Positions 12,043-27,529 of a stretch of 46,213 bases of DNA are shown one piece after another; position 1 is the first letter of the stretch, and every line of letters starts with the position of its first letter. Both the position numbers and the translations under genes were made by a program. Where the stretch lies: assembly GCA_030457025.1 (NCBI GenBank), contig JAKDSA010000019.1:1-46213 (forward strand), given 5' to 3'. The notes beneath the pieces were generated by a model. That model worked only from the letters and a program-made list of their open reading frames with translations, did not search any database and was not told the DNA's origin. Source of the DNA: Brevibacterium sp. Its GTDB lineage: Bacteria; Actinomycetota; Actinomycetes; Actinomycetales; Brevibacteriaceae.

Positions 12043-13038
12043 ATGACTGATACACAATTGGTGATCATCGGGTCGGGTCCGGCCGGGTACACCGCGGCTG
12101 TCTACGCGGCTCGTGCGAATCTTTCGCCCGTGGTCATTGCAGGTTCTGTGACCGCTGGTGGTGAACTCATGAACACCACCGACGTCGAGAATTACCCCGG
12201 ATTCCCGGCTGGCGTGCAGGGACCAGAGCTCATGGAGAGCATGCGCGAGCAGGCTGAGAAGTTCGGCGCCGAGGTGATCTACGACGACGTGGCAACCCTC
12301 AAGCTGGAACCCGGCGCACATCAGATCGAAACGGCGCTCGGCGCCAGGTACACGGCTCAGGCCATCATCCTCGCCACAGGCTCGGCATACCGCGAACTCA
12401 ATCTTCCCAACGAAAAGAAACTGTCCGGTCGCGGCGTCAGCTGGTGTGCGACCTGTGACGGGTTCTTCTTCCGAAATCAGCACATCGCAGTCGTCGGTGG
12501 CGGTGACTCTGCTCTCGAAGAGGCAACATTCCTCACTCGTTTCGCATCCAAGGTGACTCTGATCCACCGTCGCCAGGAGCTCCGAGCTTCGCAGGCAATG
12601 CAGGATCGGGCAGCTGCTGATGAGAAGCTCGAATATCTCCTCGACAGTGAGGTCGCTGAAATACAGGGTGACGACTCATTGACCGGCCTCACGGTCCGCA
12701 ACACCGTCACCGACGAGTTGTCCGAACTGCCGGTTACGGGCCTGTTCGTGGCGATCGGCTCCGACCCTCGCACCAGTCTCTTCGCCGATCAGCTCTCGAT
12801 GCGTCCCGACGGCTATCTCAACGTCGAGGGACGCACCTCCAAGACCGCGGTCGAGGGCGTCTTCGCCGCGGGAGACGTCATTGATTCTGTCTACAGGCAG
12901 GCCATCACGGCTGCGGGATCGGGATGCTCCGCCGCACTCGACGCAGAGCACTATCTTGCCGATCTCGACGCTGTGGCAAAGCAGGCTCAGACCGTAGCGC
13001 CTGACGCTGCACCGGCAACAGCGCCGGTCGCCTCCTGA
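12043..13038 (+). CDS. trxB: Thioredoxin-disulfide reductase
   Basis: NADPH- and FAD-dependent reductase that recharges thioredoxin; cytoplasmic. It is 331 aa. The N-terminal FAD site is VIIGSGPAGYTAAVYAAR, the redox pair is WCATCDG (Cys135/Cys138), the NADPH fold is VVGGGDSALEEA with HRRQELRAS, and the second FAD signature is GVFAAGDVIDSVYRQAITAAGSG. A short Ala/Pro-rich tail (QTVAPDAAPATAPVAS) extends beyond the usual end. The ATG at 12043 was chosen because homology begins there; the ribosome site (AGGGAAA) is moderate. trxA follows 139 bases later with its own matching promoter, so the two need not be one transcript. A SigR-type motif precedes the gene. Confidence 0.97.
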   Translation: MTDTQLVIIGSGPAGYTAAVYAARANLSPVVIAGSVTAGGELMNTTDVENYPGFPAGVQGPELMESMREQAEKFGAEVIYDDVATLKLEPGAHQIETALGARYTAQAIILATGSAYRELNLPNEKKLSGRGVSWCATCDGFFFRNQHIAVVGGGDSALEEATFLTRFASKVTLIHRRQELRASQAMQDRAAADEKLEYLLDSEVAEIQGDDSLTGLTVRNTVTDELSELPVTGLFVAIGSDPRTSLFADQLSMRPDGYLNVEGRTSKTAVEGVFAAGDVIDSVYRQAITAAGSGCSAALDAEHYLADLDAVAKQAQTVAPDAAPATAPVAS

Positions 13039-13116
13039 CAGCTCACCGTCCGGCGGATTCATCGCCAACGAAGCGCTCGGCGCTCACGCCTGACGAGAGC
13101 TCAAGAACCGCGCTGG

Positions 13117-13142
13117 GGAATGAAACTCGCACAATGGCTGTT
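13117..13142 (+). promoter_or_regulatory. SigR/SigH-type promoter of trxA
   Basis: GGAAT (13117-13121), exactly 18 bases, then GTT (13140-13142), ending 35 bases before the trxA ATG. It is a second exact copy of the motif seen before trxB, which supports both as real promoters. Confidence 0.75.
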
Positions 13143-13177
13143 TCCGCTAGAGAACATTATCAAGAGAAAGGTTGCTC

Positions 13178-13495
13178 ATGTCGACAGAAGTCACTGATGC
13201 CACGTTCGAAGAGACCGTATTGAAGTCCGACAAGCCAGTGCTCGTCGATTTCTGGGCTCCCTGGTGCGGCCCCTGCCGCATGGTCAGCCCGATCGTTGAC
13301 CAGATCGCGGAAGAGAACACCGAGAAACTCAACGTCGTCAAGGTCAACACTGACGAGAACCTCGAAATAGCGAGCAAGTATGGGATCACCTCGATTCCTG
13401 CGCTCTACGTCTTCAAGGATGGTGAGGTGGCCAAGACCATCATCGGTGCACGGCCGAAGCCGGCGCTTGAAGATGAGCTCTCCGACTTCATCTGA
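13178..13495 (+). CDS. trxA: Thioredoxin
   Basis: Small cytoplasmic dithiol-disulfide oxidoreductase of 105 aa, full family length. The active site is WCGPC (Cys30/Cys33) in the conserved LVDFWAPWCGPCRMVSPI context, and the cis-proline loop is SIPALYVF. The ATG at 13178 is preceded by AGAAAGG; a TTG two codons earlier is less likely. It partners the trxB product and corresponds to trxC (Rv3914) in the mycobacterial order. Confidence 0.97.
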   Translation: MSTEVTDATFEETVLKSDKPVLVDFWAPWCGPCRMVSPIVDQIAEENTEKLNVVKVNTDENLEIASKYGITSIPALYVFKDGEVAKTIIGARPKPALEDELSDFI

Positions 13496-13504
13496 TCGAG
13501 TTCC

Positions 13505-13536
13505 AAGGCGCCTGTTGTACGATCAACAGGCGCCTT
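13505..13536 (+). terminator. 13-bp hairpin between trxA and cwlM
   Basis: Perfect stem AAGGCGCCTGTTG / CAACAGGCGCCTT with a 6-base loop (TACGAT). It begins 10 bases after the trxA stop and ends 12 bases before the cwlM ATG. No T-run follows, so it may end trxA transcription imperfectly or act as a translation or attenuation structure for the next gene. Confidence 0.7.
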
Positions 13537-13548
13537 CGGTGTATCCAC

Positions 13549-14733
13549 ATGGCAGACAGGAACTTTCAGAACCTCGCACAGCAGATTGGCATGGCATTGA
13601 TTCACAACCAACACCCGCAGTTCTCACGCGGGGACAGCTCTGAGGTGTTGCCCACCATCAAATCTCAGATGGCTCGTCTGGGACTCAATGTCGGTCAGGC
13701 CGAATCGGCGGAGTTCGATCGAGCCTTCGAGCTCGGTGTTCGGCAGTTCCAACAGGTCCGAGGAATCCTTTGCGACGGTGTGATGGGCTCAGAGACCTTT
13801 TCCGAGCTCGAACGGGCTCGATATCAGCTAGGCGACCGAGTGCTACGCTACGACCCCGTCAGAGTCCTTACAGGGGATGATGTACTCAGACTTCAGCGGA
13901 CCCTCGCCGGCCTGGGGTTCTACGCGGGCCGCATGGACGCAGAATACTCCGCAGTCACAGAATCCGCAGTCAAAGAGCTCCAGATGAGCCTCGGCACCAA
14001 AGTCGACGGCGTAGCGGGACCTCAAACACTGCGCGGACTCGACGCCATCGATCGAAAGCAGGACACCGGCAATCTCTTCGCTCTCGAAGAACGAGCGCGA
14101 GTAGCAGCAAGCGGAACATCGCTCGCAGGTCGGACCTTCGTCATTGAAGCAGCAACTACAGTTGTAGATTTCGAGACTTTGCCGATGACCATCGAACAGG
14201 CCGATACGGAACGCAGCATCACCACGAATATAGCAAGCCGGCTTGCTGGCCGCCTCGAAGCAGTGGGTGCCGGCGCCATCGTCCTCCACGGCGACGCTGT
14301 CGAAGTCAACAAAGCAGACCAGCTTGGTGCTTCTGCCGTCATTACCGTGACCGCAGATATCAACAAGTCCAAAGAAGCGAACGGGGTCGCGACATTCTAC
14401 TTCGGCCATGAGACTCATTCCGATATCAATTCCCCTACCGGCGCGCGTCTGGCAGAGCTCATCCAAAGCGAGCTCACGGCTCGGACGGGCATGAGGGACT
14501 GCAGGAGTCATGCACGTACCTGGTCGTCGCTGAAGCGACTGCGCACCCCCAAGGTTCACGTCGTGGCCGGTTACCTCACCAACCTCAACGATCTCGATAA
14601 CCTCCAAGACGCTAACGTTCGAGATGCGATTGCGGACGGTATTGCCGCTGGTCTGCAGCGACTGTACGTCCGAGAGGACTCAGATCCCGAAACGGGGACA
14701 CTCAGCCTGGCACAGATCAAGGCGTACAACTGA
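13549..14733 (+). CDS. cwlM: CwlM-like protein: peptidoglycan-binding domains plus degenerate amidase domain
   Basis: Protein of 394 aa. Two PG_binding_1 repeats (about residues 35-90 and 105-175, with FQQVRGILCDGVMGSETF and LQMSLGTKVDGVAGPQTL) are followed by an Amidase_3-like domain (about 185-385). In active zinc amidases the first strand reads DPGHGG and a later one SIHAN. Here they read VIEAATTVV and VITVTADINKS, so at least two zinc histidines appear to be missing. The mycobacterial homologue CwlM (Rv3915) is a cytoplasmic regulator of MurA rather than a hydrolase; no signal peptide is visible here either, which fits. The gene follows trxA as in mycobacteria. The start is uncertain: ATG 13549 has no clear ribosome site and sits just after a strong hairpin. 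Confidence 0.88.
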   Translation: MADRNFQNLAQQIGMALIHNQHPQFSRGDSSEVLPTIKSQMARLGLNVGQAESAEFDRAFELGVRQFQQVRGILCDGVMGSETFSELERARYQLGDRVLRYDPVRVLTGDDVLRLQRTLAGLGFYAGRMDAEYSAVTESAVKELQMSLGTKVDGVAGPQTLRGLDAIDRKQDTGNLFALEERARVAASGTSLAGRTFVIEAATTVVDFETLPMTIEQADTERSITTNIASRLAGRLEAVGAGAIVLHGDAVEVNKADQLGASAVITVTADINKSKEANGVATFYFGHETHSDINSPTGARLAELIQSELTARTGMRDCRSHARTWSSLKRLRTPKVHVVAGYLTNLNDLDNLQDANVRDAIADGIAAGLQRLYVREDSDPETGTLSLAQIKAYN

Positions 14734-14748
14734 GATATCGTCATCTTC

Positions 14749-14764
14749 TGTTTCACGTGAAACC
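14749..14764. other. parS site 1
   Basis: TGTTTCACGTGAAACC: 15 of 16 matches to the parS consensus TGTTTCACGTGAAACA, with an exact 14-bp palindrome core. It lies 16 bases after the cwlM stop. Confidence 0.93.
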
Positions 14765-15134
14765 GTCCGTTCACTCGTTCAGCTGACAGGTCACGTCCAC
14801 AGCCCGGAGTGGCACCACATCACTCCCTACTGGGACGACGGATTCTCGTCATCCTCACACACCCCGCCGGTGAGAACCCTCAAGATTGCACCTGTTTTCT
14901 CCCCGCCTCCGTGACCGCCGCAAGGATCCCGAGTAGTCTCGAGGTGTCTGCTGTGCTCAGTGTCATGCCTATGGCCGACTCTCGGCGTATACCGCGCCTC
15001 GCATTCTCATGATGAGTCGTTCGCATTCGACTTTCGGTGCGGACGCGGCCATACAACGAATAGAACCATAGAACTCGCAATGCAATGGGCGTCCTAGAAG
15101 CCGTACATCTATTCTTGTGGTGATTCCAGAAGGA

Positions 15135-15150
15135 TGTTTCACATGAAACT
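15135..15150. other. parS-like site 2 (degenerate)
   Basis: TGTTTCACATGAAACT: 14 of 16 matches; the central CACGTG is CACATG. Confidence 0.65.
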
Positions 15151-15334
15151 CGGCTGGTGGAGTCTCGGCGTTCTGCACAGATCACACCGGGTCCGGAGAC
15201 GTGCTGGCCAACCCCACACGCGGTGCCGGCAGTCGAGGCGACTTCAACAACCGGAACGGCTCGATACTATGCACTGGAGCACTGTCGTCATGGTTCATTC
15301 CGACTGGAACAGGTGACTCAACAATAAGATACGT

Positions 15335-15350
15335 TGTTCCACGTAAAACG
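15335..15350. other. parS-like site 3 (degenerate)
   Basis: TGTTCCACGTAAAACG: 13 of 16 matches to the consensus. Confidence 0.55.
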
Positions 15351-15533
15351 GAGGCCAACTAGAGGATTCGCCCAGCGAACCCTAATGCATTGGCCGCAGT
15401 AACGCTTCCTGGGACACTTCCTCAGAACTGACTTGTCAACAAGGAACACAGCCGTCCACCGGGGCGCTTCAGAGCCCGCTTTCACCGTTCCGGAAAACCC
15501 ATACACACTAGTACGCATGCTTGCGGCGAAGCT

Positions 15534-15549
15534 CGTTCCACGTGAAACA
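15534..15549. other. parS-like site 4
   Basis: CGTTCCACGTGAAACA: 14 of 16 matches with an intact CACGTGAAACA right half. Confidence 0.8.
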
Positions 15550-16088
15550 TTATCACCGGCGGTCACCGTCAATAGTGTTCGGAGTATTGATAGGCCGCCT
15601 GGATCCGGTCGTCCGGGAGCGGCAACGACTACATCTAGCTGCAAGCCTTTGGCAAGATCATGGGTTGTCTCAGACGATTAGTTGCTACTGATCATGTGTG
15701 AGGTGGCGATCGCTGCTGTTCGTTCCGGCGCCAATCGTCCTCGCCCGCCCGGAGCATCGGGCCGCAGATTTCGACAAGGACCTATCGGAAATTCAGCGGC
15801 GCCAACGTGCTGGCCTTGGAAGAGACACCGCAGCGATGTCTGTGGTCCCACCACTGGGACGGAGACGTTGTCGCCAGCACCAAAGTGGATTTCCGTTACG
15901 CCTGGGGCCCGTTCCCCTTACCTCTTGCCCATACAAAGGGACCACGGAGTGAAGGGTAACTGCAGAGTCAGCATAACAACGTTGACAGCCTCAGCCCCAT
16001 GTCCGGTGGTCCCACGGGGAGATGCTGATGGTCCGAACCGGGCCCAAGATGGTTGGCCCTGTGCGCATTCCCATGTTGCGGATTCTCA

Positions 16089-16104
16089 TGTTCCACATGA
16101 AACG
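16089..16104. other. parS-like site 5 (degenerate)
   Basis: TGTTCCACATGAAACG: 13 of 16 matches. Confidence 0.55.
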
Positions 16105-16308
16105 TTGAAGACGATCCCGATTTCACACGCAATTTGCCTTTCACAGCACGGCATCTGGCGACAACACTAATCGGAAGAATGACGTAGTTGCGATCAAACA
16201 CCTCAATATTCGTTCCTTGCCGGACCGGAGAAGCGCGGTGCCGGTTCACCTGAGTCGAATGTGACCAAAGATTACCCAATGTCATCGGCCGTCCGATGTC
16301 GGTTTCGT

Positions 16309-16324
16309 AGTTTCACGTGAAACG
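16309..16324. other. parS site 6
   Basis: AGTTTCACGTGAAACG: exact 14-bp palindrome core with only the outermost bases differing. Confidence 0.9.
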
Positions 16325-16514
16325 GGATCGCCAGGTCCACCGGTTCCAATTCGACGTTTCTGTATCCGCAGACCGACAGGTTGCGCACGGCGACGGTTCA
16401 GCCGATTCAGCGAATGGACCCATTCGATAGCTGCGCGCGAGAGGTGGAAGCTAATGCTTGAGATGATCACAATCCGGGACTGCGGCTACGGAATAACCGT
16501 CCTGGTCCGTGCAT

Positions 16515-16530
16515 CGTTTCACGTGAAACG
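16515..16530. other. parS site 7
   Basis: CGTTTCACGTGAAACG: perfect 16-bp palindrome with an exact 14-bp core. Confidence 0.92.
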
Positions 16531-16650
16531 TGTGAAAACGCTACATGCTCCGCTTCGAATCGAAACAAATACTTCCCCGAAGCCAGAATCGACCCCATCC
16601 TGTCGCGCGATAGATAGCCACGATCGGCATCCTGCGCCCTCTCCAAACCT

Positions 16651-16666
16651 GGTTTCACGTGAAACA
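16651..16666. other. parS site 8
   Basis: GGTTTCACGTGAAACA: 15 of 16 matches with an exact 14-bp core. Confidence 0.92.
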
Positions 16667-16921
16667 TACACCTGCAAGAGGGTCCAAAAGAGATAGACTA
16701 AGAGCCGACAGTCACCATTCGGGCCTAGAAGTAGCACCAAGAAACGAACCTCACTCACCGATCAGCCCCGGGTACTTAAACAACACCAATGAACGACTGC
16801 CGGGTAGAAGCCGTTCCAAGATCTGTCCGACCACTTCTACGAACGAAGCCGAATGGTTCCGGTCGATCACACTCTCTCTACTCCACAGTCGTCAACTGGC
16901 ACGGCGCGCACTTCTTAGCAT

Positions 16922-16937
16922 AGTTTCACGTGGAACA
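16922..16937. other. parS-like site 9
   Basis: AGTTTCACGTGGAACA: 14 of 16 matches; one change in the right arm. Confidence 0.78.
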
Positions 16938-17032
16938 TCGGGAGCAATCAAGGGCTTATGCAACACGGGTCAAGCGTGGTCATCGAAGGGTCCGGAACCG
17001 ACTACCCCCAACCTCCCATGTCTACCTCAACA

Positions 17033-17048
17033 TGTTGCATGTGAAAGG
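17033..17048. other. parS-like site 10 (very degenerate)
   Basis: TGTTGCATGTGAAAGG: 12 of 16 matches. Included because of its position among better sites; alone it would not be convincing. Confidence 0.35.
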
Positions 17049-17288
17049 CTCACGCTATTGGGACCCACCTGAATTGGAGTCCAGCCTCGTCCGTTGATGA
17101 ACCGAAGTACGCCGATTCGGCGGCAGTTCGTGCCGATCTACGTATAGTGAAAGCAATCCCCACCTGACCGCCAGCGGGGTATGTCGTGCGTGCAGCTCAA
17201 GGCATCGGATCAGGCGCCAATCGCTTCTATACTCATCGGCTCAAACACCCATGAGCACTTGGGTTGATGGGCTCTCGATTATATCTAC

Positions 17289-17304
17289 GGTTTCACGTGA
17301 AACA
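17289..17304. other. parS site 11
   Basis: GGTTTCACGTGAAACA: identical to site 8, with an exact 14-bp core. Confidence 0.92.
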
Positions 17305-17502
17305 GATACCCGATGGTCCTCACATAGGTAGGATTGTCTTCATCAAAAGAAGATGGAGAGTGCCAAACTCGGTCGCGCCATCGTCGTGGGTACGCACGAG
17401 GCAGACACAGCGTCTAGAGTGCCATTAATTGAAGCGCCAACCTACAAAGACGAACCGCTGGACGAATTTCTCGAATGGATTTTCGCAAGCCCACCACTTG
17501 AG

Positions 17503-17518
17503 GGCTTCACGTGAAACA
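17503..17518. other. parS-like site 12
   Basis: GGCTTCACGTGAAACA: 14 of 16 matches with an intact right half. Confidence 0.8.
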
Positions 17519-17711
17519 CGACAGTCCTATTGACACACAATGAAGTAGTTGATCGGCAGAAGTGTGATCATCGCAGAGAGTCACAGGGAATCGACACGGC
17601 GTCGTTCATCCCACAGGCACCGAAAGTGCCCTACACAAACATGCGTCATCAGGAGCTTGCACTTCATTGACTATGAAACACATAGCCTCGACACCGGGGA
17701 AGAATACCAAG

Positions 17712-17751
17712 AGGGCGGGTGAGAAGACCTTCATGCCTTCTCACCCGCCCT
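17712..17751 (-). terminator. Terminator of the parAB operon
   Basis: A 15-bp perfect stem, AGGGCGGGTGAGAAG / CTTCTCACCCGCCCT, with a 10-base loop, 22 bases beyond the parB stop. On the minus strand it is followed by the moderately T-rich CTTGGTATTCTT. Confidence 0.85.
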
Positions 17752-17773
17752 ATTTCACACGGTTCGACAATCG

Positions 17774-19642
17774 TCACTCAGTAGGAGACTCCACGCCAAG
17801 CAGACTCAGGATTCGATCCAGATCAGTCTGGTTCGCAAATTCCACGCTCAGCTTGCCCTTCTTCTTTCCCACCGTGATGTTGACCTTAGTGTCCAAACGA
17901 TCACCAAGCCGCTCGGCAACCTCAATGAACTGAGGCGACACCCGCGACGTTGCACGTGAAACATTCACAGCATCACCACGGTTGAGCAATACCACAGCTT
18001 CCTCAGACGCACGCACTGAAAGGCCTTCGGCGACGATCCGCTGGGCAAGGACCTCCATATGCTCAGGCTCACGCAGCCCCAAGATCGCTCGAGCATGCCC
18101 TGCCGAAATCACGCCCGCAGCTACACGGCGTTGAACCAGAGGCGGCAATCGGAGAAGACGTAAAGTATTCGATATCTGTGGTCGCGATCGACCAATCCGT
18201 TCCGAAAGTTCTTCCTGCGTACAACCAAAGTCCTCAAGCAGCTGACCATAGGCCGCAGCTTCCTCCAAAGGATTCAGTTCTGCTCGGTGCAGGTTCTCCA
18301 GAAGGGCATCCCGCAGCATGTCGGTGTCATCGACATATCGGATAATCGCAGGAATCGTCGAAAGACCGGCGTCCTTTGTCGCCCGGAGACGACGTTCACC
18401 CATGATGAGTTCGAAGCGTTCCGGATCGCCGGGTTTCTGACGGACAACGACAGGTTGCAGCACACCGATCTCACGGATGCTGTGGACAAGCTCGCTCAGC
18501 TGGTCTTCATCGAAGAACGTGCGAGGCTGGCGAGGATTGGCCTCAATCAGTTCAACGTTGACCTCCCCGAATTCCGTATCGGGGATCGAGTCCACACCAG
18601 TGTTCTCGCCGTTTGCTTCGGGAGCCGACTGATCATCATCCTCGTCGGAAGCGGAGCTTGCAGAGGAAGCTGAAGAGCCCGAGACAGCTTCTACTTCTTC
18701 TGTAGTTTCGACATCGCCCGACTCTTGCTCGTCCTGTGCCTTGTCAAAGACTTCATGGCCCGATCGGTAGACCCCGGGATGGGTTTCCGAAACGTCATCG
18801 GCCTGGGGGGATTCTTGATCCGCCCGATCGACATCCGGATCGACAGTGGTGGCTCCCGTATCAGGTTCAGTGATTCCTACGGCGGGTGCGCCTACTGTTG
18901 AGCTGTTTTGGACCTCAAGGTCCTGTGTGGCTTCGGCAGGCTCACTCTCAGACGACGAAGCAGAAGACACACGAGTCGTTGCTTCGGTGGGTTTGACCGA
19001 TGGGCTCGAACCGTCTGGGGCGGCGTTCGTGCCCTTCCGGGACGACTCCTTGGCTTGCGACTTCGCTCCCACCAATTCTGGATCGGCCGAGTGCACATTC
19101 GTTGTCTTCGCCGCAGCCGATTTCGGCCCGGCTGCTTTCGCCGCAGCCGATTTGTTCGCTGCCGAGTTTGTCGGGGCTGCTTTCGCCGCGGCTGGTTTCG
19201 TGGTTGTCGGGGACATGCCAGCCGGCTTCTCCGTGGTGGTTTTGGTTCCAGGGGACTTGGGCTGTGCCCGTCCACTTTTCGCTGCATTGCCGGACGTGGA
19301 CTTTTTACTCGCGGCCTGAGGACCGCCCGACTTCGTCGAGGCTGATCCTGATGTGTTCTTCGAAGGAGCAGACCCTGAGTCGGGTGCGGACTGCTCCGGC
19401 GTCTTTGCAGCCGCGGACTCTGCTGTGGATCCGGATTTGGGCTTACGCCGGCGGGAAGACTGCATTGAGGCCGCGGGATCCGTACGAGCGGTACGAGGTG
19501 CCTTCGCCTCTTCCGCACTGTGATTGTTCTCTTCTGCTTCACCCCCGGAGAAGAAGACGTCCACCGGACGGTCGCTCGACGCCGAATCCGGGATCAGAGC
19601 GCCGAGCCCACGACCCAAACCACGCTTTCTGCGTTCAGCCAC
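17774..19642 (-). CDS. parB: Chromosome-partitioning protein ParB with a very long charged linker
   Basis: CTP-dependent clamp that loads at parS and recruits SMC and ParA. The N-terminal ParA-contact motif (RRKRGLGRGLGALIP) opens the protein. About 325 low-complexity residues follow: roughly 50-215 rich in Lys/Ala/Ser/Pro, and 225-350 rich in Asp/Glu/Ser. The ParB core begins near residue 364 (NPRQPRTFF) with the CTP-binding motifs GERRLRA (about 415) and ENLHRAELNPLEEA (about 449). The helix-turn-helix (TQEELSERIGRSRPQISNTLRLL) and a C-terminal dimer domain complete it. At 622 aa it is nearly twice the usual 300-350. The start overlaps the parA stop by 8 bases. A parS-like sequence lies inside the gene. 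The identity is certain; the role of the linker is unknown. Confidence 0.97.
   Translation of the reverse strand: MAERRKRGLGRGLGALIPDSASSDRPVDVFFSGGEAEENNHSAEEAKAPRTARTDPAASMQSSRRRKPKSGSTAESAAAKTPEQSAPDSGSAPSKNTSGSASTKSGGPQAASKKSTSGNAAKSGRAQPKSPGTKTTTEKPAGMSPTTTKPAAAKAAPTNSAANKSAAAKAAGPKSAAAKTTNVHSADPELVGAKSQAKESSRKGTNAAPDGSSPSVKPTEATTRVSSASSSESEPAEATQDLEVQNSSTVGAPAVGITEPDTGATTVDPDVDRADQESPQADDVSETHPGVYRSGHEVFDKAQDEQESGDVETTEEVEAVSGSSASSASSASDEDDDQSAPEANGENTGVDSIPDTEFGEVNVELIEANPRQPRTFFDEDQLSELVHSIREIGVLQPVVVRQKPGDPERFELIMGERRLRATKDAGLSTIPAIIRYVDDTDMLRDALLENLHRAELNPLEEAAAYGQLLEDFGCTQEELSERIGRSRPQISNTLRLLRLPPLVQRRVAAGVISAGHARAILGLREPEHMEVLAQRIVAEGLSVRASEEAVVLLNRGDAVNVSRATSRVSPQFIEVAERLGDRLDTKVNITVGKKKGKLSVEFANQTDLDRILSLLGVESPTE
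17948..17963. other. parS-like site 13, inside parB
   Basis: CGTTGCACGTGAAACA: 14 of 16 matches to the consensus (15 if the fifth base is free, as in the Bacillus consensus). It lies in the C-terminal coding part of parB. Confidence 0.78.
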
Positions 19643-20531
19643 GATTTACTCCTCGTTGTGCAATTTCTTCGGCTGCTTCCCGATAGGACAAAGCGCCACT
19701 GGAATGGGGGTCGTACGAAATGACGGTCTGCCCATAGCTCGGAGCCTCCGAAATGCGCACGGAGCGTGGAATCGAGGATGACAGAACCTGGTCGGGGAAA
19801 TGAGAGCGAACGTCATCTGCGACCTGAGCGCTGAGGTTGGTCCGGCCGTCGTACATCGTCAGCAGAATCGTGCTGATCGACAGTTTGGGGTTGAGATGCT
19901 TCTGGATGAGCTGAATGTTCTTCAGCAGTTGACTCAATCCCTCAAGAGCATAGTATTCACACTGAATCGGGATGAGAACCTCACGCGCCGCAACGAACGC
20001 GTTGACTGTCAGCAGTCCCAAGCTCGGCGGACAGTCCACGATCACGTAATCCACACGATGTCCCGCTGCGGACTCTTCATCAAGATAAGCAGCCAGAGAT
20101 CTCTGAAGACGCTGTTCACGAGCGACAAGTGACACCAGCTCGATCTCGGCTCCGGCCAAATCAATCGTCGCAGGAACACACTTGAGAGTGTCGAAATCCG
20201 GGCATTGGGCAACTGCCTCACGCATGGGAACGTCGTCGATGATCACGTCGTAGATGCTGGTGACTTCGGAATAGTGGTCAATACCCAGAGCGGTACTTGC
20301 ATTGCCCTGAGGATCAATGTCGATCAGCAGAACGTTGAGGTTCTGATTGGCCAACGCGGCGGCGATATTCACGGCAGTGGTCGTCTTCCCGACGCCGCCC
20401 TTCTGGTTGGCGACCGTGAAGACCCGAGTGGAGTCGGGTTGTGGAAAACTCGCTTGGGACAGACGATCGGCGCGACGATTGTCGCGCGCGATAGCAGCAC
20501 CTATGGGAGACGACTCGTCCATGATCGGCAT
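19635..20531 (-). CDS. parA: Chromosome-partitioning ATPase ParA
   Basis: Walker-type DNA-binding ATPase that moves ParB-parS complexes. The deviant Walker A ANQKGGVGKTTTAVNIAAAL (about residues 41-60) with the signature lysine, the DIDPQGNAST motif, the Walker B VIVDCPPSLGLLTVNA and the C-terminal YREAAEEIAQR helix are all present. I chose the ATG at 20531 (298 aa) because GGAG lies 8 bases upstream. In-frame GTG 20561 and ATG 20552 exist but lack a ribosome site. The N-terminal tail before the ATPase core is about 35 aa. It overlaps parB by 8 bases, so the two are coupled. Confidence 0.96.
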   Translation of the reverse strand: MPIMDESSPIGAAIARDNRRADRLSQASFPQPDSTRVFTVANQKGGVGKTTTAVNIAAALANQNLNVLLIDIDPQGNASTALGIDHYSEVTSIYDVIIDDVPMREAVAQCPDFDTLKCVPATIDLAGAEIELVSLVAREQRLQRSLAAYLDEESAAGHRVDYVIVDCPPSLGLLTVNAFVAAREVLIPIQCEYYALEGLSQLLKNIQLIQKHLNPKLSISTILLTMYDGRTNLSAQVADDVRSHFPDQVLSSSIPRSVRISEAPSYGQTVISYDPHSSGALSYREAAEEIAQRGVNRG

Positions 20532-20597
20532 TCGGCGCACTCCATCATCCATTGGTTTCACAAAGCTATACTCAGCCTAGACCAAATCTACTTCGTA

Positions 20598-21236
20598 CTA
20601 TTTCTTGGCTATCTCGACGACACGGCTGGGGACATCGAGTATTCCACCGTCGATGACGTGAATCGTCGGCTGGGTCAGTCGATACCGTTTCAACAGCTTC
20701 TTCGTCTTCGCCAATTCAGCTTCGACCGAGGCACCCTTGAGCGCGAGGATCCGCCCGTCAGGACCCATCACTTCGTGGGTCCATTCGATGAGAGTCGTCA
20801 TCGCTTTGACCGCGCGAGCGGTCACAACGGTGAACATCTCCTCATCAACGAGTTCCTCAACCCGAGCGCGGACGATGCGCACGTTGTCCAGTCCCAGATC
20901 GTCGATGACCATCTTCAGCCATTCGACCCGACGCTCCATCGGCTCGATGAGGACGACCTGTGCTTGAGGACGAAGCAGAGCAATCGGAATCCCGGGCAGA
21001 CCAGCCCCGCTGCCGACGTCGCCGACGACATCGCTGTCGTCAATGAACTCGGCGACGACAGCACAGTTGAGGATGTGCCTGGTCCAGAGTCTGTCGATCT
21101 CACGCGGACCGATCAGTCCCCATTCGATGCCGGTGGTCGCCAGATGCTGGGCATACCGGACAGCCGCGGGGTAGGCAGCTCCGAAGTACTCTTCGGTGCC
21201 TGCTGGGGGAACTTCGAGAGCGGAAAGGTCAGTCAT
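20598..21236 (-). CDS. rsmG: 16S rRNA (guanine527-N7)-methyltransferase RsmG (GidB)
   Basis: SAM-dependent methylation of G527 in 16S rRNA; loss gives low-level streptomycin resistance in other bacteria. It is 212 aa from ATG 21236. The SAM loop is VVGDVGSGAGLPGIPIAL (about residues 70-88), followed by LIEPMERRVEWLKMVIDDLGLDNV and VTARAVKAMTTLIEW. The start overlaps the jag stop by 8 bases (ATGACTGA). It lies between jag and parA as in most actinobacteria. Confidence 0.96.
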   Translation of the reverse strand: MTDLSALEVPPAGTEEYFGAAYPAAVRYAQHLATTGIEWGLIGPREIDRLWTRHILNCAVVAEFIDDSDVVGDVGSGAGLPGIPIALLRPQAQVVLIEPMERRVEWLKMVIDDLGLDNVRIVRARVEELVDEEMFTVVTARAVKAMTTLIEWTHEVMGPDGRILALKGASVEAELAKTKKLLKRYRLTQPTIHVIDGGILDVPSRVVEIAKK

Positions 21237-21810
21237 GGGCCGGACGGACGAGCACATGCCGGCCGTCACCCTCGCCTTCGGACTCCGACACCAATCCAGC
21301 CTGAGCAACCTGATCGTGGATGATCTTGCGTTCAAAGCTGTTCATCGGCTTGAAAGCGAACTCTTCGCCTGATGCCTTGACATCCTCGATTGCTCGCTGA
21401 GCCTTCTTGATGAGCTCGTCGCGACGACTATTGCGGAAACCGTCGATGTCGAGCATCAGCCAGGATCGCTGCCCGGTGCTCGTCTGGACAGCCAGACGGC
21501 TGAGTTCCTGCAGAGCACCGAGGGTCTTGCCATCCCGACCGACCAAAGTGCGAAGGTTGGAATCTGCCTCATCCTCGCAGACGACAGACAGCTGAGCACG
21601 TCCATCCCCGACGTCGATGTCGATGTCGCCATCGATGTCAGCGAGGTCCATCAGCTCTTCGAGGTAGTCCGCTGCGATCTCTCCCTCTTCTTCGAGGAGC
21701 TCGGCTCTCGTCGGCTTCGCAGTTTTATCGGCACCGTTGTCTGCGGCACCCGCGTCGACAGTCGTGTCGACATTCTCATCGACAGTCGTGTCGACATTCT
21801 CTTCAGTCAT
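21229..21810 (-). CDS. jag: Jag/KhpB RNA-binding protein (KH and R3H domains)
   Basis: Single-stranded RNA-binding protein of 193 aa. The Jag-type KH domain has LVGRDGKTLGALQELSRLAV, and the R3H domain has MNSFERKIIHDQV. The acidic N terminus contains a perfect peptide duplication (ENVDTTVD twice) encoded by a 24-base tandem repeat. The start has GAGGAAG upstream. It lies 9 bases after yidC and overlaps rsmG. KhpB homologues affect cell-division gene expression in firmicutes; its role in actinobacteria is less clear. Confidence 0.94.
   Translation of the reverse strand: MTEENVDTTVDENVDTTVDAGAADNGADKTAKPTRAELLEEEGEIAADYLEELMDLADIDGDIDIDVGDGRAQLSVVCEDEADSNLRTLVGRDGKTLGALQELSRLAVQTSTGQRSWLMLDIDGFRNSRRDELIKKAQRAIEDVKASGEEFAFKPMNSFERKIIHDQVAQAGLVSESEGEGDGRHVLVRPAHD
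21755..21802. repeat. Two tandem 24-base units at the start of jag
   Basis: Units 21755-21778 and 21779-21802 differ only in the last base and encode the doubled ENVDTTVD peptide. This is a recent in-frame duplication prone to slippage. Confidence 0.85.
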
Positions 21811-21819
21811 CGTTCTTCC

Positions 21820-22782
21820 TCAGCGCTTCTTGTTCTTCTTGCGGTTCTTACTCACCGGCTGCTGCCGTTGACGGCTCTGATTCGGGGCTTCTTCAACGGC
21901 TGTGTCGCTGCCGCCCTTGATCTCAGGCTGTGCAACGGGCTTGCCCTTGCGTGCCTTGCGCTCCAGCATCTCCTTCTCGGCTTTGGAGCCGGGGGCTGGC
22001 ATATTGCGGATGACCACGTGCTGCTGGCACATCGTCCACGTGTTCGAGACGAGCCAGTAGAAAAGAACGCCGAGCGGGAAGTAGAGACCACCGAAGCCGA
22101 AGACGACAGGCATCACGTAGAGGAGCATCTTCTGCGACTGCATCATCGGGTTCGCCATAGCCGACTCCGACATGTTCTTTGCCATCATCTGCTTCTGGGT
22201 GATGAACATCGTCGAGGCCATGATCACGATAAGCACGCCGGTCAGGAGTTTGACGCCGATTCCCGGTGTCTCCAAGAACGTCGCGGACAAGGAAATCCCG
22301 AAGACCGTGGACTGCTCGGCCTGTTGAGCCAGGGTCTGGGTGAAACCGCCGATGGCTCCGACCGACCCATCGGCTACCTTCGGCATGTTGTGGATAACAC
22401 GGAAGAGAGAGAAGAAGATCGGCATCTGCACAAGAAGGGGCAGACACGAGGCCCAGGGGCTGGTCTTGTTGTCGCGGAACAGACTCATCTGCTCTTCGGC
22501 CATGGCCTGACGCGAGTACTGATCCTTCTTGCCCTTGTACTTGGCCTGCAGGCGCTGAATCTGAGGCTGCAGCAGCTGCATCTTCCGCTGGGACTTGATC
22601 TGGTAGACGAACAGCGGAATCAGGATCGCACGGATCACCAGAGTCAGACCCGCGATCGACAGAACCCAGGTCCAACCATTGGCGGCCGGCAGACCGATCG
22701 CAGTGAAGATCTCGTGGAAGATCGCGAGGATCCAAGCAACTACCCACTGCAGCGGGTAGAGCAGCTTGTCCATCCAGTCCAT
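21820..22782 (-). CDS. yidC: Membrane protein insertase YidC
   Basis: Oxa1/Alb3-family insertase of 320 aa. It has five hydrophobic segments. The conserved positively charged groove residue sits in LTLVIRAILIPLFVYQIKSQRKM. A cytoplasmic coiled hairpin follows (LQPQIQRLQAKYKGKKDQYSRQAMAEEQMSLF), then SCLPLLVQMPIFFSLFRV, and a very basic C-terminal tail (SKNRKKNKKR) for ribosome contact. The ATG is preceded by GAGGAGT. It lies between yidD and jag in the conserved rpmH-rnpA-yidD-yidC-jag order. Confidence 0.97.
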   Translation of the reverse strand: MDWMDKLLYPLQWVVAWILAIFHEIFTAIGLPAANGWTWVLSIAGLTLVIRAILIPLFVYQIKSQRKMQLLQPQIQRLQAKYKGKKDQYSRQAMAEEQMSLFRDNKTSPWASCLPLLVQMPIFFSLFRVIHNMPKVADGSVGAIGGFTQTLAQQAEQSTVFGISLSATFLETPGIGVKLLTGVLIVIMASTMFITQKQMMAKNMSESAMANPMMQSQKMLLYVMPVVFGFGGLYFPLGVLFYWLVSNTWTMCQQHVVIRNMPAPGSKAEKEMLERKARKGKPVAQPEIKGGSDTAVEEAPNQSRQRQQPVSKNRKKNKKR

Positions 22783-22955
22783 TCAGTACTCCTCGTTACA
22801 ACGATTCTTCACGATCGTTCATTTTGCCATTGTTCTCGGTCGGTCGCGACACAGGATTCCCGGTCCCGCTCTCGTACTGGCCCTAGGCGTCAGCCTCCGT
22901 ACTGTTCGTGATGCACAGATGCGCTGAGCATCTGCGGTACACACATCGATGATCG

Positions 22956-23309
22956 TCAGCGGCCCTCATCGTCATGCATCGAAACGGAGCGGGCCTGGCG
23001 CGCTGAACCGGGAACATGGTCCACCCCGCCATGGGAAAAGGGATTGCATCGTAGTATTCGCCATCCAGTTAACACCATTCCCTTGAGAACTCCGTGTATC
23101 TCGAAGGCTTCTAGGCCGTACATCGAGCAGCTGGGATAGTACCGGCAGACCTGTCCGTACATCGGAGACACCACTGCACGATAGGCTCTGATGAACCACA
23201 CGAATGGTATGCGTGGCCCGACTCGGATCACCCACCAGACTGTGGGCCAGAAACCGGCCGGTCTGCGAGGCACCTCCGATGGGTGCTTCAGATCATGTTC
23301 GGCGTCCAC
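22956..23309 (-). CDS. yidD: Membrane protein insertion efficiency factor YidD
   Basis: Small amphipathic membrane-associated protein of 117 aa. It carries the family core RAYRAVVSPMYGQVCRYYPSCSMYGLEAFEIHGVLKGMVLTGWRILRCNPFSHGGVDHVP with the conserved cysteines. The GTG start lies inside the 3' end of rnpA (17-base overlap), suggesting coupling. A 173-base gap separates it from yidC. Confidence 0.94.
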   Translation of the reverse strand: MDAEHDLKHPSEVPRRPAGFWPTVWWVIRVGPRIPFVWFIRAYRAVVSPMYGQVCRYYPSCSMYGLEAFEIHGVLKGMVLTGWRILRCNPFSHGGVDHVPGSARQARSVSMHDDEGR

Positions 23310-23658
23310 GGCTGTCTAGCTTCTTCTGCGCCTTGTCCATCAGCATCGTGACCTCGGACTCAAGCTCTGCGAATTCCGCTTCGGCTGCATGCGGCAATGC
23401 TCTGACCACGAACAGAGCGCCGGGATCAAGCTCGTCCAGTCGGACTCGCATGATCTCTCGAAGGCGACGTTTCACTCGGTTTCGGCGAACGGCGTTTCCA
23501 ACAGCCTTGGATACGATGAAACCCACGCGCGCAGCGTGGGAATCATCACTATCTATCAGGCTGTGCGCCATCAAATGGTCCGAGCGCACGCGGACACCAG
23601 CTTTGAAGACTCTTCTGAAGTCGTCGCCGCTGCGTATCCGGTGAGCCGCGGTGATCAC
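23293..23658 (-). CDS. rnpA: Ribonuclease P protein component
   Basis: Protein subunit of RNase P, which trims the 5' leader of tRNAs. It is 121 aa, with FRRVFKAGVRVRSDHLMAH and the RNA-binding RNR motif AVGNAVRRNRVKRRLREIMR. The GTG start is 2 bases after the rpmH stop, an arrangement typical of the rpmH-rnpA operon. Confidence 0.96.
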   Translation of the reverse strand: MITAAHRIRSGDDFRRVFKAGVRVRSDHLMAHSLIDSDDSHAARVGFIVSKAVGNAVRRNRVKRRLREIMRVRLDELDPGALFVVRALPHAAEAEFAELESEVTMLMDKAQKKLDSRGRRT

Positions 23659-23660
23659 AC

Positions 23661-23798
23661 TTATGCCGAAACTTCGGCACGTCCCTTACGACGACGTGCG
23701 GCCAGGATCGAACGGCCCGCACGGGTGCGCATACGCAGACGGAAACCGTGCTTCTTGGCACGCTTGCGGTTATTGGGCTGGAAAGTACGCTTACTCAC
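23661..23798 (-). CDS. rpmH: 50S ribosomal protein L34
   Basis: I translated this 45-aa protein by hand: it begins [20 protein letters not shown], continues with [20 protein letters not shown] and ends AEVSA. This is the complete L34 family sequence. The GTG start has GGAG 7 bases upstream. It is the first gene of the leftward operon and is divergent from dnaA. Confidence 0.98.
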
Positions 23799-24207
23799 TT
23801 CAAGTCTCCGATGTCTAGGTTGCGGTCGAACGACGGTGCGTTCTCACAAAAAACGGCGGTACAGGTCTCGACCGCCGAGCACTCCTGTGCATAAGAGCCA
23901 AAAGATATTCAAGATAATCGGATGAAGCCCGGTACACAGGACACTCCACCTTAGCGAAGGGCAAAGTTGCTGGTCAAACTCGATTCGGATGTTTCACGTC
24001 ACTGTCACCAACTGCCAGCCAAAATTCATCGTCTGCACATCCGCGGTCTTCCACAAGTAACAAGCGTGTAGTTTTCCACATAGTTATCCACCCGTGTGGA
24101 TGATTGCTGGGTTGACTCGCCAGTTCTCCACAAACTGTGGAAAACTATGTGGAAGTCATACACAGGTGTGGACCACGCCAAGAAAGAACGACGAAGACGG
24201 AGAAAGA
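23799..24207. other. Divergent rpmH/dnaA upstream region with a DnaA-box cluster
   Basis: 409 bases without a gene. The dnaA-proximal part holds DnaA-box-like 9-mers: TTTTCCACA 24072-24080, TTATCCACC 24084-24092, TGTGGATGA 24095-24103, TTCTCCACA 24124-24132 and TGTGGAAAA 24136-24144, each one base from TTATCCACA on one strand. TAGTTTTCCACA (24069-24080) and TGTGGAAAACTA (24136-24147) form a 12-bp inverted repeat. The cluster probably serves dnaA autoregulation and/or part of the origin. The promoters of both genes must lie here, but I could not identify them with confidence. Confidence 0.8.
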
Positions 24208-25848
24208 TTGACAGTGTCGAATTCCAAAAATGAGCTCATCAGCCAATGGCGGACGGTGGTCTCGACCCTGGATCAGGACGCCAGTCTGACCGCCCATCAG
24301 AAGGGCTTCCTCTCCCTGGCTGTGCCCAGAGCTCTCGTCGACAACGCGCTGGTCCTTCTCGCGGTCCGTGATGAGCACACCCGCAGGACCATTGAGACAC
24401 GCCTTCTCGGGCCTCTGACCGCGGAGTTCTCCCATGTTCTTGGCTTCGAAGTGACGTTCGGCTTCGTCGTCGATCCGGAACTCGACGTACCGATCAGGTT
24501 CGAAGATCTCATCGGCGAGCCCACACCAGGCTCACCGATCGAAATCGATCCGGAGACCTCCACCTCGGCGATGGGATCCACTGGATCACCGGCCAATGCA
24601 CCATCGCAGGCCCCAGCGCCTGAGGCTCAGATCCCTGCCCCCTACAACCGTGCACCCCACCCACAGCCGCAGGCACCCAGGTACGATGCCTCCGGGCCGG
24701 CACCCGGCAACGGGGCGCCTGCGGAAAGAACGGCGCGAGAGATGAAGATCGCCGAGGCGACCGCCGCCCAGTCCGTTCCACCGGTCGAGGTTCCCGGCGT
24801 CGCCCAGCTCAACCCGAAATACACCTTCGACACGTTCGTCATCGGCGCATCCAACCGCTTCGCTCATGCAGCGGCATTCGCCGTGGCCGAGGCACCAGCC
24901 AAGGCCTACAACCCGCTGTTCATCTACGGCGATTCGGGTCTGGGCAAGACACACCTCCTGCATGCGATCGGCTACTACGCGACGCAGCTGTTCCCCGAGA
25001 TCCGAGTGAAATACGTCTCGAGCGAAGAGTTCGTCAACGATTTCATCAATACAATCGGCTCGTCGAAGACCTCGAACTCTCTGCGCCCGGCGTTCCAGCG
25101 TCGCTACCGTGAAGTCGACATCCTGATGATTGATGACATCCAGTTCCTGCAGGGCAAGGATGCGACGGTCGAGGAGTTCTTCCACACTTTCAATGCTCTG
25201 CACAATGAGGTGAAACAGGTCGTCATCACCTCCGACCAACCGCCGAAGAAGCTCAAGGGCTTCGAAGAACGGTTGCGCTCACGCTTCGAATGGGGCCTCC
25301 TGACCGATGTCCAGCCACCGGACATGGAGACGCGCTTCGCAATTCTGCGTCGCAAGGCAGCCGGCGAGCAGCTCGACGTTCCCAATGACGTCCTCGAATA
25401 CATCGCCTCGCGGATCTCGTCGAACATCCGTGAACTCGAGGGCGCGCTGATTCGCGTCACCGCCTTCGCGAACCTCAACGATCAGCAGGTCGACGTCAGT
25501 CTGGCCGAGACCGTCCTCAAGGACTTCATCACCGAGGACGACACCCCGGCCATCTCCGCCGCCGACATCATGGGCCAGACCGCCGCCTACTTCAGCCTCA
25601 CGCTCGATGATCTGTGCGGCACGTCCCGCTCTCGGACCCTGACCACCGCTCGTCAGATCGCCATGTATCTGTGCCGTGAGCTCACGGAGCTGTCGCTGCC
25701 GAAGATCGGTCAGGCCTTCGGCGGGCGCGACCACACCACCGTGATGCATGCGAACAAGAAGATTCGAACTCAGATGGCTGAGCGACGGGCGGTCTACACT
25801 CAGGTCACCGAATTAACAAACCGCATTAAACAGCAACATCGCCTATAG
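24208..25848 (+). CDS. dnaA: Chromosomal replication initiator DnaA
   Basis: AAA+ initiator that binds DnaA boxes and melts the origin. It is 546 aa from TTG 24208, which has GGAG five bases upstream; GTG 24214 is an alternative, and the open frame further upstream has no ribosome site and overlaps the box cluster. Domain I is [16 protein letters not shown] onward, and domain II is a Pro/Ala-rich linker (about residues 110-195). The AAA+ domain has Walker [15 protein letters not shown] (about 241) and Walker [14 protein letters not shown] (about 305). Domain IV ends with the DNA-binding signature [15 protein letters not shown] (about 504). Confidence 0.98.
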
Positions 25849-25865
25849 AACACGGTATACACATC

Positions 25866-25874
25866 TGTGGATAA
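25866..25874 (-). other. Consensus DnaA box
   Basis: TGTGGATAA is the exact reverse complement of TTATCCACA, located 18 bases after the dnaA stop. Confidence 0.88.
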
Positions 25875-26056
25875 CCATGGGGACAAACCGCGTAACCTGG
25901 GGATAGAATGGTGGATAACTCCACGAGGTGAGTGGACGGATGTGAACTACATGGATGTGCTTACCCAAGCGCCCACCGAAGGCTGCGTGAGCGTACACAG
26001 GGGATCCACACCCATGGGGATCGCTCAGCCCTTGATTACTCGGGCGTAACCGATAG

Positions 26057-26065
26057 TTGTCCACA
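26057..26065 (+). other. DnaA box, mycobacterial form
   Basis: TTGTCCACA, one base from the E. coli consensus, next to TACTCCACA (26066-26074) and an AT-rich stretch. Confidence 0.8.
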
Positions 26066-26389
26066 TACTCCACAGGTGCTAATACTTCTACTCTATGAAT
26101 TGAAGTTGTAAGAGGGTGACCGCCACCGACTGCATCGGCTCGGTCGGGAAGCTCTCGAGCACGAGCTCGGCAGGAACTCGGGACACTGTCAGTTATTCGA
26201 ACACAGCGTTACGGTCGATTCTCGAATGCGAGATCTCTGAGGCCTGGGGCCGAGAGGGGCGCCTGACCGATCATCATGTTGGCTGCCCAATGCCGGGAAG
26301 CTGAGATTTCGGATAGGCTGTGTAAAGTTTTCCGAGCAACCTCACGCCAGTGTCTTGAGTACGTCGGGTGGCCACCCCGAAGGAGTAAA

Positions 26390-27529
26390 GTGAACGCCGA
26401 AACATCTCCCCTGAAGTTCAAAGTCAATCGCGACGTCCTTGCCGATGCAGTGACCTGGGCAACCAAGACTCTCCCCAGTCGTCCGTCCGCACCGGTTCTC
26501 ACCGGCATCCTCATCACCGCCGAGGCCGGTGGGACCGTCCGTCTCTCCGTCTTCGACTACGAGGTCTCCTCCCGAGTCGAGATCGCAGCCGACGTGGTCA
26601 CTCCCGGCACCGTTCTCGTCTCCGGTCGACTCCTCGCCGATATCTCGAAGGCGCTTCCGAACCAGGAAGTCACCCTTGAACAGATCGATTCGAAGGTCGA
26701 CGTCACGTGCAGCTCCTCTCGGTTCTCGCTGATGACGATGCCAGTGGGCGAATACCCATCGTTGCCTCAGGTTCCCGACGCTTCGGGAACCGTTTCGGCC
26801 GGCGAATTCCAGAACGCCGTATCTCAGGTCACGATCGCGACGTCGAAGGATGACACACTGCCGATCCTGACCAGCGTGCGCGTTGAGATCGAGGGCGAGA
26901 AGGTCACACTTCTGGCCACCGACCGCTATCGGCTCGCTGTCCGTGAGTTCACCTGGAACCCTGGTCGACCCGATGTCTCTGCAGTCGCACTTCTGCGCGG
27001 TCGGACACTTTCGGATGTCTCGAAGTCCCTCGGTGGGGATGTCACGATCGGCCTGAGCAACGATGAGGGCAAGGATCTCATCTCCTTCACCTCGGCGGGG
27101 CGAGTCACGACATCACTGCTCGTCGAGGGCGAATACCCCAAGGTGCGTTCCCTGTTCCCCGATTCGGTTCCGATCCATGCGATCGTCGAAACAGGTGTGC
27201 TGCGTGAAGCAGTCCGTCGTGTCTCGCTCGTGGCCGAACGAAACACTCCGCTGCGATTCGAGGTCAGCGACGGAATGCTCACCCTCCACGCTGGTACCGG
27301 TGACGATGCTCAAGCATCGGAAGCCGTCGAGGCGGTGCTGCAGGGTGACCCCATCACCGTTGGCTTCAACCCGCACTACATCGCCGAAGGTCTGGCCGCG
27401 ATCGAGAGCCCGTACGTGAATTTCTCGTTCACCCAGCCGATGAAACCCGTCATCATCTCAGGACAGAAGGATCTGGAATCATCGGCCGACGAGTCGTATC
27501 GATACCTGCTCATGCCAACGCGTATCTGA
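26390..27529 (+). CDS. dnaN: DNA polymerase III beta sliding clamp
   Basis: Ring-shaped processivity clamp of 379 aa from GTG 26390, which has AGGAG four bases upstream; the longer upstream frame lacks homology. The three-fold clamp domains are visible: KFKVNRDVLADAVTWATKTLPSRPSAPVLTGI at the start, TVSAGEFQNAVSQVTIATSKDDTLPILTSV in the middle, and EGEYPKVRSLFPDSVPIHAIVETGVLREAVRRVSLVAE later. The C terminus SYRYLLMPTRI resembles the canonical MPxR-type end. recF begins on the base after its stop. Confidence 0.97.
   Translation: MNAETSPLKFKVNRDVLADAVTWATKTLPSRPSAPVLTGILITAEAGGTVRLSVFDYEVSSRVEIAADVVTPGTVLVSGRLLADISKALPNQEVTLEQIDSKVDVTCSSSRFSLMTMPVGEYPSLPQVPDASGTVSAGEFQNAVSQVTIATSKDDTLPILTSVRVEIEGEKVTLLATDRYRLAVREFTWNPGRPDVSAVALLRGRTLSDVSKSLGGDVTIGLSNDEGKDLISFTSAGRVTTSLLVEGEYPKVRSLFPDSVPIHAIVETGVLREAVRRVSLVAERNTPLRFEVSDGMLTLHAGTGDDAQASEAVEAVLQGDPITVGFNPHYIAEGLAAIESPYVNFSFTQPMKPVIISGQKDLESSADESYRYLLMPTRI

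Follow-up and report, generated by a model that had tools for sequence, protein, structure and literature searches.

Several bacterial chromosomes carry clustered parS sites, and three described cases come closest to the locus reported here. In Myxococcus xanthus, 22 parS sites lie within 3 kb, about 4 kb upstream of parA, and ParB has been shown to bind the fragment in vitro (PMC3899335). In Corynebacterium glutamicum, ten sites (parS1-10) lie within 35 kb, nine of them intergenic, with enrichment of ParB and SMC, and a single parS is enough for wild-type-like growth (PMC7083940). In Caulobacter crescentus, the five strongest parS sites fall within 5 kb, about 8 kb from ori, and weak non-specific binding has been proposed as the reason for clustering; the same work names the expansion of bacterial centromere-like regions as an interesting question (PMC5815017). 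In the open-licence literature, no report of parS in Brevibacterium was found, and no such array was found for Brachybacterium, a genus that appears in the part of PMC4255298 available to us in a strain list only. An earlier reading of the DNA described here, made from the sequence alone, had held that actinobacterial parS sites are usually scattered singly, which is too general a statement.

The stretch analysed here, called the window, comprises 46,213 nucleotides of a draft Brevibacterium genome (3.42 Mb, 193 contigs, 89% complete). Within it, a 3040-bp interval extends from behind the stop of a cwlM-like gene (14733) up to the stop codon of parB (17774), and both genes converge on this interval, their stops facing it. 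The name cwlM is the label of the sequence-only reading, while parA (named from sequence and position) and dnaA and dnaN (named from sequence) are presumed identities. The features are as follows, those without a direction being marked unstranded.

13549 to 14733, forward strand: cwlM-like gene (peptidoglycan-binding and Amidase_3 domains; Pfam PF01471, PF01520), convergent with parB and flanking the array
14734 to 17773, unstranded: gene-free parS array, 11 sites with up to 3 mismatches (site scan, ORFs and Pfam)
14749 to 14764, unstranded: parS, 1 mismatch, full 14-bp core (scan)
15135 to 15150, unstranded: parS-like, 2 mismatches (scan)
15335 to 15350, unstranded: parS-like, 3 mismatches (scan)
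15534 to 15549, unstranded: parS-like, 2 mismatches (scan)
16089 to 16104, unstranded: parS-like, 3 mismatches (scan)
16309 to 16324, unstranded: parS, 2 mismatches, full 14-bp core (scan)
16515 to 16530, unstranded: parS, 2 mismatches, full 14-bp core (scan)
16651 to 16666, unstranded: parS, 1 mismatch, full 14-bp core (scan)
16922 to 16937, unstranded: parS-like, 2 mismatches (scan)
17032 to 17047, unstranded: decayed parS-like copy, 4 mismatches by our count (repeat search)
17289 to 17304, unstranded: parS, 1 mismatch, full 14-bp core (scan)
17503 to 17518, unstranded: parS-like, 2 mismatches (scan)
17712 to 17751, reverse strand: terminator-like hairpin behind parB, 17-bp stem (hairpin scan)
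17774 to 19642, reverse strand: parB (ParB_N, HTH_ParB and ParB_C by Pfam), with a linker of about 350 aa ahead of ParB_N
17948 to 17963, unstranded: parS-like site within the parB coding sequence, 2 mismatches (scan)
19635 to 20561, reverse strand: parA (ORF)
25849 to 26275, unstranded: dnaA-dnaN intergenic region with exact DnaA boxes at 25866 and 26057 (DnaA-box scan)

When the 46-kb window was scanned with the 16-bp palindrome TGTTTCACGTGAAACA at up to 3 mismatches, 12 matches were found against a mean of 0.07 in 100 shuffles, none of which reached 12 (0/100), so that the sites exceed chance as the sequence-only reading had maintained; the exact 14-bp core was likewise confirmed in the five sites at 14749, 16309, 16515, 16651 and 17289. 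Its count of twelve palindromes in the interval needs amending, in that eleven lie there and the twelfth (17948) lies inside parB, the number being restored if the decayed copy at 17032 is counted. Sites with up to 3 mismatches are spaced 136-555 bp apart with no fixed period. Its description of the interval as gene-free agrees with Pfam, which offered no credible match for any of the six ORFs (96-162 aa) that lie in the interval or overlap it: five had none, and one matched a reoviral family at E 0.055. A conserved gap protein was rejected on this lack of Pfam support, on spacer alignment of at most 2%, and on tblastx against the other gaps, which gave 6 short matches (11-49 aa), all to one sister-species pair. 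An RNA family was also rejected, as Rfam (E up to 0.1) matched only within dnaA across 13000-26500. Terminator-like hairpins in the region number 2 against 2.9 expected in shuffles. The partner ParB of the window has the usual ParB_N, HTH and dimerisation domains (Pfam), and a full-length SMC is encoded in the same genome.

The whole genome holds 17 sites with up to 3 mismatches, 12 in the window and 5 elsewhere, each of the five with 3 mismatches, and the reversed pattern, used as a control, gave 1 match; all ten sites with up to 2 mismatches (10/10) lie in the window, so that site density elsewhere is far lower. The chromosome record of B. sandarakinum has 12 of its 15 sites in the block (11 in the gap and one in parB), the other 3 having 3 mismatches. 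The window has four exact DnaA boxes, and two of these fall in the dnaA-dnaN gap, some 8 kb away from the array; this intergenic region is probably oriC. In this genome and its relatives, the sites are therefore concentrated near the probable oriC and parAB.

Among 60 family genomes searched, ParB was found in 59, and a region of about 20 kb was fetched for 58 besides that of the window. On a tree of five proteins (59 tips, printed without support values), the genus divides into two clades. Clade II contains 45 genomes, 42 of which have both gap edges on the contig, and in all of these (42/42) the gap measures 2010-4063 bp and holds 3-14 sites (median 10), with at least five in 41 of the 42. 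In 36 of these 42 intact-gap genomes, all genomic sites with up to 2 mismatches lie within the fetched region of about 20 kb, and in the other six (6/42) one lies outside it. The sequence-only reading had proposed a dedicated gene-free parS block beside parB, and such a block is thus common to one large clade, with nearly all genomic sites in it. In 37 of the 45 clade II genomes, the window included, the parA-parB stretch has a single site, located 186-192 bp ahead of the parB stop. Some genomes of this clade have both kinds, such as G058, with 9 gap sites and four sites in or upstream of parB.

The sister clade, clade I, comprises 11 genomes, eight of which have a gap of 25-840 bp with 0-2 sites and carry 4-5 sites in the parA-parB stretch; the others are G012 (gap 2240 bp, 6 sites), G037 (gap 1715 bp, 6 sites, genes without sites) and G027 (gap 154 bp). 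Two genomes are counter-examples to the array: G027 has no gap site and 13 sites with up to 2 mismatches scattered on eleven contigs, and G005 of clade II has only 3 gap sites. In three genomes of other genera (G061, G062 and G063), the parA-parB stretch carries 2-4 sites, and the gap 1, 4 and 0, respectively. This distribution leads us to infer that the in-gene sites are older and that the array came later, in one to three gains; the sites would probably have left the parA-parB stretch for a growing noncoding block next door.

The ParB linker measures 113-419 aa in the 44 genomes with a gap above 1.5 kb (at least 237 aa in 42 of them), 106-157 aa in nine measured genomes with shorter gaps, 247-474 aa in 34 Brachybacterium genomes and 31-155 aa in 16 other measured actinobacterial loci. 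A strict coupling between array and linker length was rejected on G012, whose linker has 113 aa beside a 2240-bp gap with 6 sites, and on G037 (175 aa), and the array and the long linker are thus associated only. In another genus, a set of 38 Brachybacterium genomes was analysed, parB being found in 34, and all of these (34/34) have 7-13 sites behind parB; the next mapped gene is 2.3-3.9 kb away in 32 of the 34 and 4.6 kb away in G082, while in G081 the array is split and lies farther off (the gap ORFs were inspected in one genome). In the B. epidermidis genome, 10 of 10 sites are located in this stretch behind parB. An unplaced Micrococcales locus (L045) has 13 sites across about 6.7 kb behind parB and one within parB. 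The other 26 non-Brevibacterium actinobacterial loci have at most two sites within 3.5 kb behind parB, nine of them having less than 3.5 kb of DNA there, and two loci (L031 and L033) have six sites each, spread over 2.5-3.6 kb upstream instead.

Across 44 gaps, 429 sites were collected, of which 374 keep CACGTG and 261 the exact 14-mer, and the parS sites are the sequence that these gaps share. A second motif was sought by eye among gap 8-mers after masking of parS, and nothing was conspicuous apart from words of the parB terminator stem; words of the window's hairpin at 17712 to 17751 recur among these enriched 8-mers. The sites avoid close neighbours: against a null in which the same number of sites is thrown into the same span, 29 of 357 Brevibacterium spacings fall below 100 bp where 107.6 +-7.5 were expected (40 non-redundant gaps with at least 5 sites), and the coefficient of variation is lower than random in 39 of 40 loci. 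In Brachybacterium, 12 of 289 spacings fall below 60 bp (71.5 +-6.5 expected) and 28 of 32 gaps are more even than random. The test counts recognisable sites alone, and spacings are partly inherited, so that loci are not fully independent. Over the 250 spacings of the multi-locus set, the median is 259.5 bp. Site positions also persist between close relatives. Seventeen pairs were aligned, seven of them with 4D identity of at least 0.83, and in six of these close pairs the sites in the same alignment column number 13 of 13, 10 of 11, 9 of 9-10, 10 of 10, 8 of 9 and 9 of 10; in the seventh (G047/G039) 3 of 12-14 sites coincide, and in the ten pairs that are more distant 1-8 do.

The DNA between the sites behaves otherwise. 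In the same six close pairs, the spacers are 46-73% identical against a shuffled baseline of 46-47%, where other intergenic DNA within the same 20 kb is 94-97% identical and 4D sites 83-87%; these values come from anchored alignments, two of the pairs having only 4 and 5 anchored spacers and G047/G039 being left out. By blastn, the same gaps are 0.60-0.73 identical where colinear, and for the window's own spacers, alignments to relatives cover 2% of the gap at most. A 400-kb control between G020 and G021 compared 65 intergenics, one being a piece of the array (38 more of unequal length were left out): the median identity is 0.967 and that of the array piece 0.755, below 56 of the other 64, while the eight that are lower still (8/64) may be replaced DNA.

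Raised divergence reaches into the flanking genes. Of 15 array-clade pairs, two lack far genes, and the results rely on the other 13, which share no genome although some tree paths overlap; they were preferred to a count of 49/49 from overlapping pairs, which was set aside. Relative to four other nearby genes, 4D divergence has a median of 2.95x in the C-terminal part of parB and 2.43x in cwlM, each above 1 in 12 of 13 pairs, the failing pairs being G049/G009 for the parB part (0.76x) and G051/G006 for cwlM (0.77x). With the 15 pairs pooled by distance, 4D divergence amounts to 0.33-0.37 over the first 900 bp towards cwlM, and towards parB to 0.31-0.42; in cwlM it drops from 0.365 adjoining the array to 0.193 at 0.9-1.2 kb (more distant genes 0.03-0.26), and along full-length parB it declines unevenly and partially, from about 0.37-0.41 to 0.26. 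By contrast, the medians for parA and rsmG are 0.97x and 1.02x among the 13 array pairs (exceeding 1 in 5/13 and 7/13) and 1.85x and 2.27x among clade I pairs, where parS is located in parA and parB and all four pairs (4/4) show the rise in both genes (Mann-Whitney p 0.006 and 0.002 between the clades). The raised zone thus differs with the position of parS, which, like the faster divergence around parS, is unusual. After correction, the near/far ratio stands at about 2.5 for far divergence of 0.11-0.22, 2.1-2.4 at 0.31-0.39 and 1.6-1.9 at 0.50, where the near value is close to saturation. Counted from the lowest 4D identity in G021/G020, cwlM ranks 1 of 62 genes at 98.5% protein identity or more, 4 of 112 at 97% or more and 23 of 176 at 90% or more. 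A weaker excess is seen in Brachybacterium, where the parB end exceeds the mean of other genes in 554 of 561 pairs, which have shared ancestry, and in 9 of the 9 non-overlapping pairs shown.

Taken together, the block is very probably the single main centromere of the chromosome, with about 11 evenly spaced parS sites some 8 kb from the probable oriC. As can be expected from general ParABS biology, ParB dimers would load as CTP clamps at each parS and slide into the spacers of about 250 bp, filling the block, and ParA would move the ParB complex while SMC would be loaded from one point. Transcription need not pass through the block, as the two genes beside it converge and both have it downstream. 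That it is instead an origin, a family of repeat elements or decayed gene DNA is very improbable: a long noncoding block near dnaA would suit such readings, but the two exact DnaA boxes are in the dnaA-dnaN gap and none is in the block, a fact on which a replication origin within the gap was rejected; the rest of the genome has no site with up to 2 mismatches, and no conserved reading frame was seen. Nor need the array be essential, because the sister clade is mostly without one and because one parS suffices in C. glutamicum (PMC7083940).

As to why the DNA near parS diverges fast, we propose that selection acts on the sites and their spacing only, and that the spacers therefore drift quickly. 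The explanation that the spacers are simply the region's only neutral DNA, while other intergenic and synonymous sites are held by selection, has somewhat less than an even chance. Spacers need no function, and for the genes it would invoke weak expression near parS through ParB spreading, with weak codon selection, which is possible since 4D G+C is lower in parB and cwlM (0.62 and 0.66) than elsewhere (0.74-0.85). Against it, rsmG and cwlM in G021 versus G020 have similar 4D G+C (0.62 and 0.61) yet 4D identities of 0.902 and 0.784, cwlM has the lowest 4D identity among the 62 highly conserved genes, and the eighteen convergent intergenics of this pair have a median identity of 0.942 against about 0.73-0.755 in the array.

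A bolder explanation, which we hold tentatively and place only slightly lower, is a bacterial 'centromere paradox', in which the ParB-parS complex, or the SMC loaded there, turns the DNA it covers into a mutation hotspot several kilobases long that moves with parS, so that site positions persist while the rest is rewritten between sister species. The partition complex might raise the local mutation rate if breaks or hindered repair result from ParB clamps, SMC or ParA-driven tension, and such a hotspot is compatible with the other two explanations. It accords with the raised 4D divergence in the parB end and cwlM, with the fall through cwlM away from the array, with parA and rsmG being raised in the in-gene-parS pairs and near 1x in the array pairs, and with the low rank of the array piece in the 400-kb control. 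However, a distinct mutation spectrum near parS was rejected on transition/transversion ratios (1.02 near, 1.20 far, 0.85 in murJ), the lower 4D G+C allows for a contribution of weaker codon selection, the contrast between clades amounts to a single evolutionary switch, and divergence declines through parB only partly and unevenly. Interspecies recombination that homogenises the rest of the region but is prevented near parS, where old divergence then survives, is unlikely to be the explanation. It would fit the raised block as a non-recombining segment, the mosaic value of murJ in one pair (0.426) and the fall of the near/far ratio with divergence; recombination as the only cause is nevertheless disfavoured because the excess persists at high divergence, though the ratio falls.

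The sequence-only reading had likened the block to a plasmid or eukaryote-style centromere, a likeness that is not supported: judged by their sequence, the sites are ordinary chromosomal parS and not iterons, and compact clusters are known near parAB or oriC. A plasmid iteron-type centromere, with short direct repeats at a fixed close period, is at odds with spacings of 136-555 bp, and a plasmid origin was rejected, the gap having no blastn match among 72,556 plasmid records. In a eukaryote-like regional centromere, function is not tied to a specific site sequence, and this comparison was likewise rejected, the parS sites being what the gaps share; the only likeness, one that the sequence-only reading had not claimed, is the fast divergence of the surrounding DNA while the sites are kept. 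One family thus shows a series from parA-parB sites with a short gap, through mixed forms, to a noncoding array with one in-gene site, and offers a natural comparison through which to ask what makes parS sites cluster, whether ParB clamp loading sets their spacing, and whether local mutation is altered by centromere complexes. If mutation lies behind the parS-linked divergence, bacterial mutation rate would have a regional determinant of which no description was found; neither a parS-linked mutation-rate hotspot nor such fast divergence of a bacterial centromere came up among the papers listed from the open-licence literature.

Among described systems, the array is best seen as a variant of known compact clusters, because M. 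xanthus has 22 sites in 3 kb. Both are compact and noncoding, with many parS sites in about 3 kb near parAB, whereas the M. xanthus cluster lies upstream of parA and not directly behind parB and has the consensus TGTTCCACGTGGAACG; no description of spacer evolution was found in the part of that paper available (PMC3899335). The C. glutamicum sites, ten in number, are similarly oriC-proximal and mostly intergenic, but are spread across 35 kb at 73 kb from oriC (PMC7083940), and those of Caulobacter differ in lying within essential or high-fitness-cost genes (PMC5815017). Brachybacterium shares the sites behind parB, the long ParB linker and the diverging spacers, while its sites are more degenerate (mostly 3 mismatches) and its next mapped gene is thioredoxin-like in 33 of 34 genomes, not cwlM. 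What is new relative to these systems, as far as our search extended, is the combination of evenly spaced parS sites and a 2.4-3-fold rise of synonymous divergence in the flanking genes with spacers that diverge faster than synonymous sites and most of the intergenic DNA compared.

A whole-genome scan of the Brevibacterium genome G027, allowing up to two mismatches to the 16-bp palindrome, returned 13 parS-like sites distributed over eleven contigs, only two of them near parB, and these scattered sites constitute a third type of layout. Another type of cluster is possibly represented by Actinotalea and Pseudactinotalea (L031 and L033), where each locus carries six parS-like sites placed upstream of parB, 2.4-6.0 kb from its stop codon. 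In one Brachybacterium (G081, locus L152), the sites fall into two groups, which extend from 3.1 kb to more than 6.9 kb after parB, a layout suggestive of an insertion of DNA within or ahead of the array. ORF fragments similar to a Mutator-type (IS256-like) transposase, named so by eye only, are found at 15600-16500 of the unplaced Micrococcales locus L045, within the parS region of about 7.5 kb that follows its parB.

In G051 and G006, a pair from the array clade, murJ shows a 4D divergence of 0.426, compared with 0.07-0.23 for other nearby genes of the same pair, and may have undergone gene replacement. Within dnaA, window positions 24925-24989 match the Rfam family AsdA, an antisense RNA to dnaA, at 33.1 bits, which is below the threshold of 52.

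The ParB encoded in the window has a low-complexity linker of about 350 aa, rich in A, S, T, P and K, which separates the N-terminal motif from ParB_N (in the stretch 18700-19640). Linkers are likewise long in Brachybacterium ParB; those of the 16 other actinobacterial loci measured span 31-155 aa.
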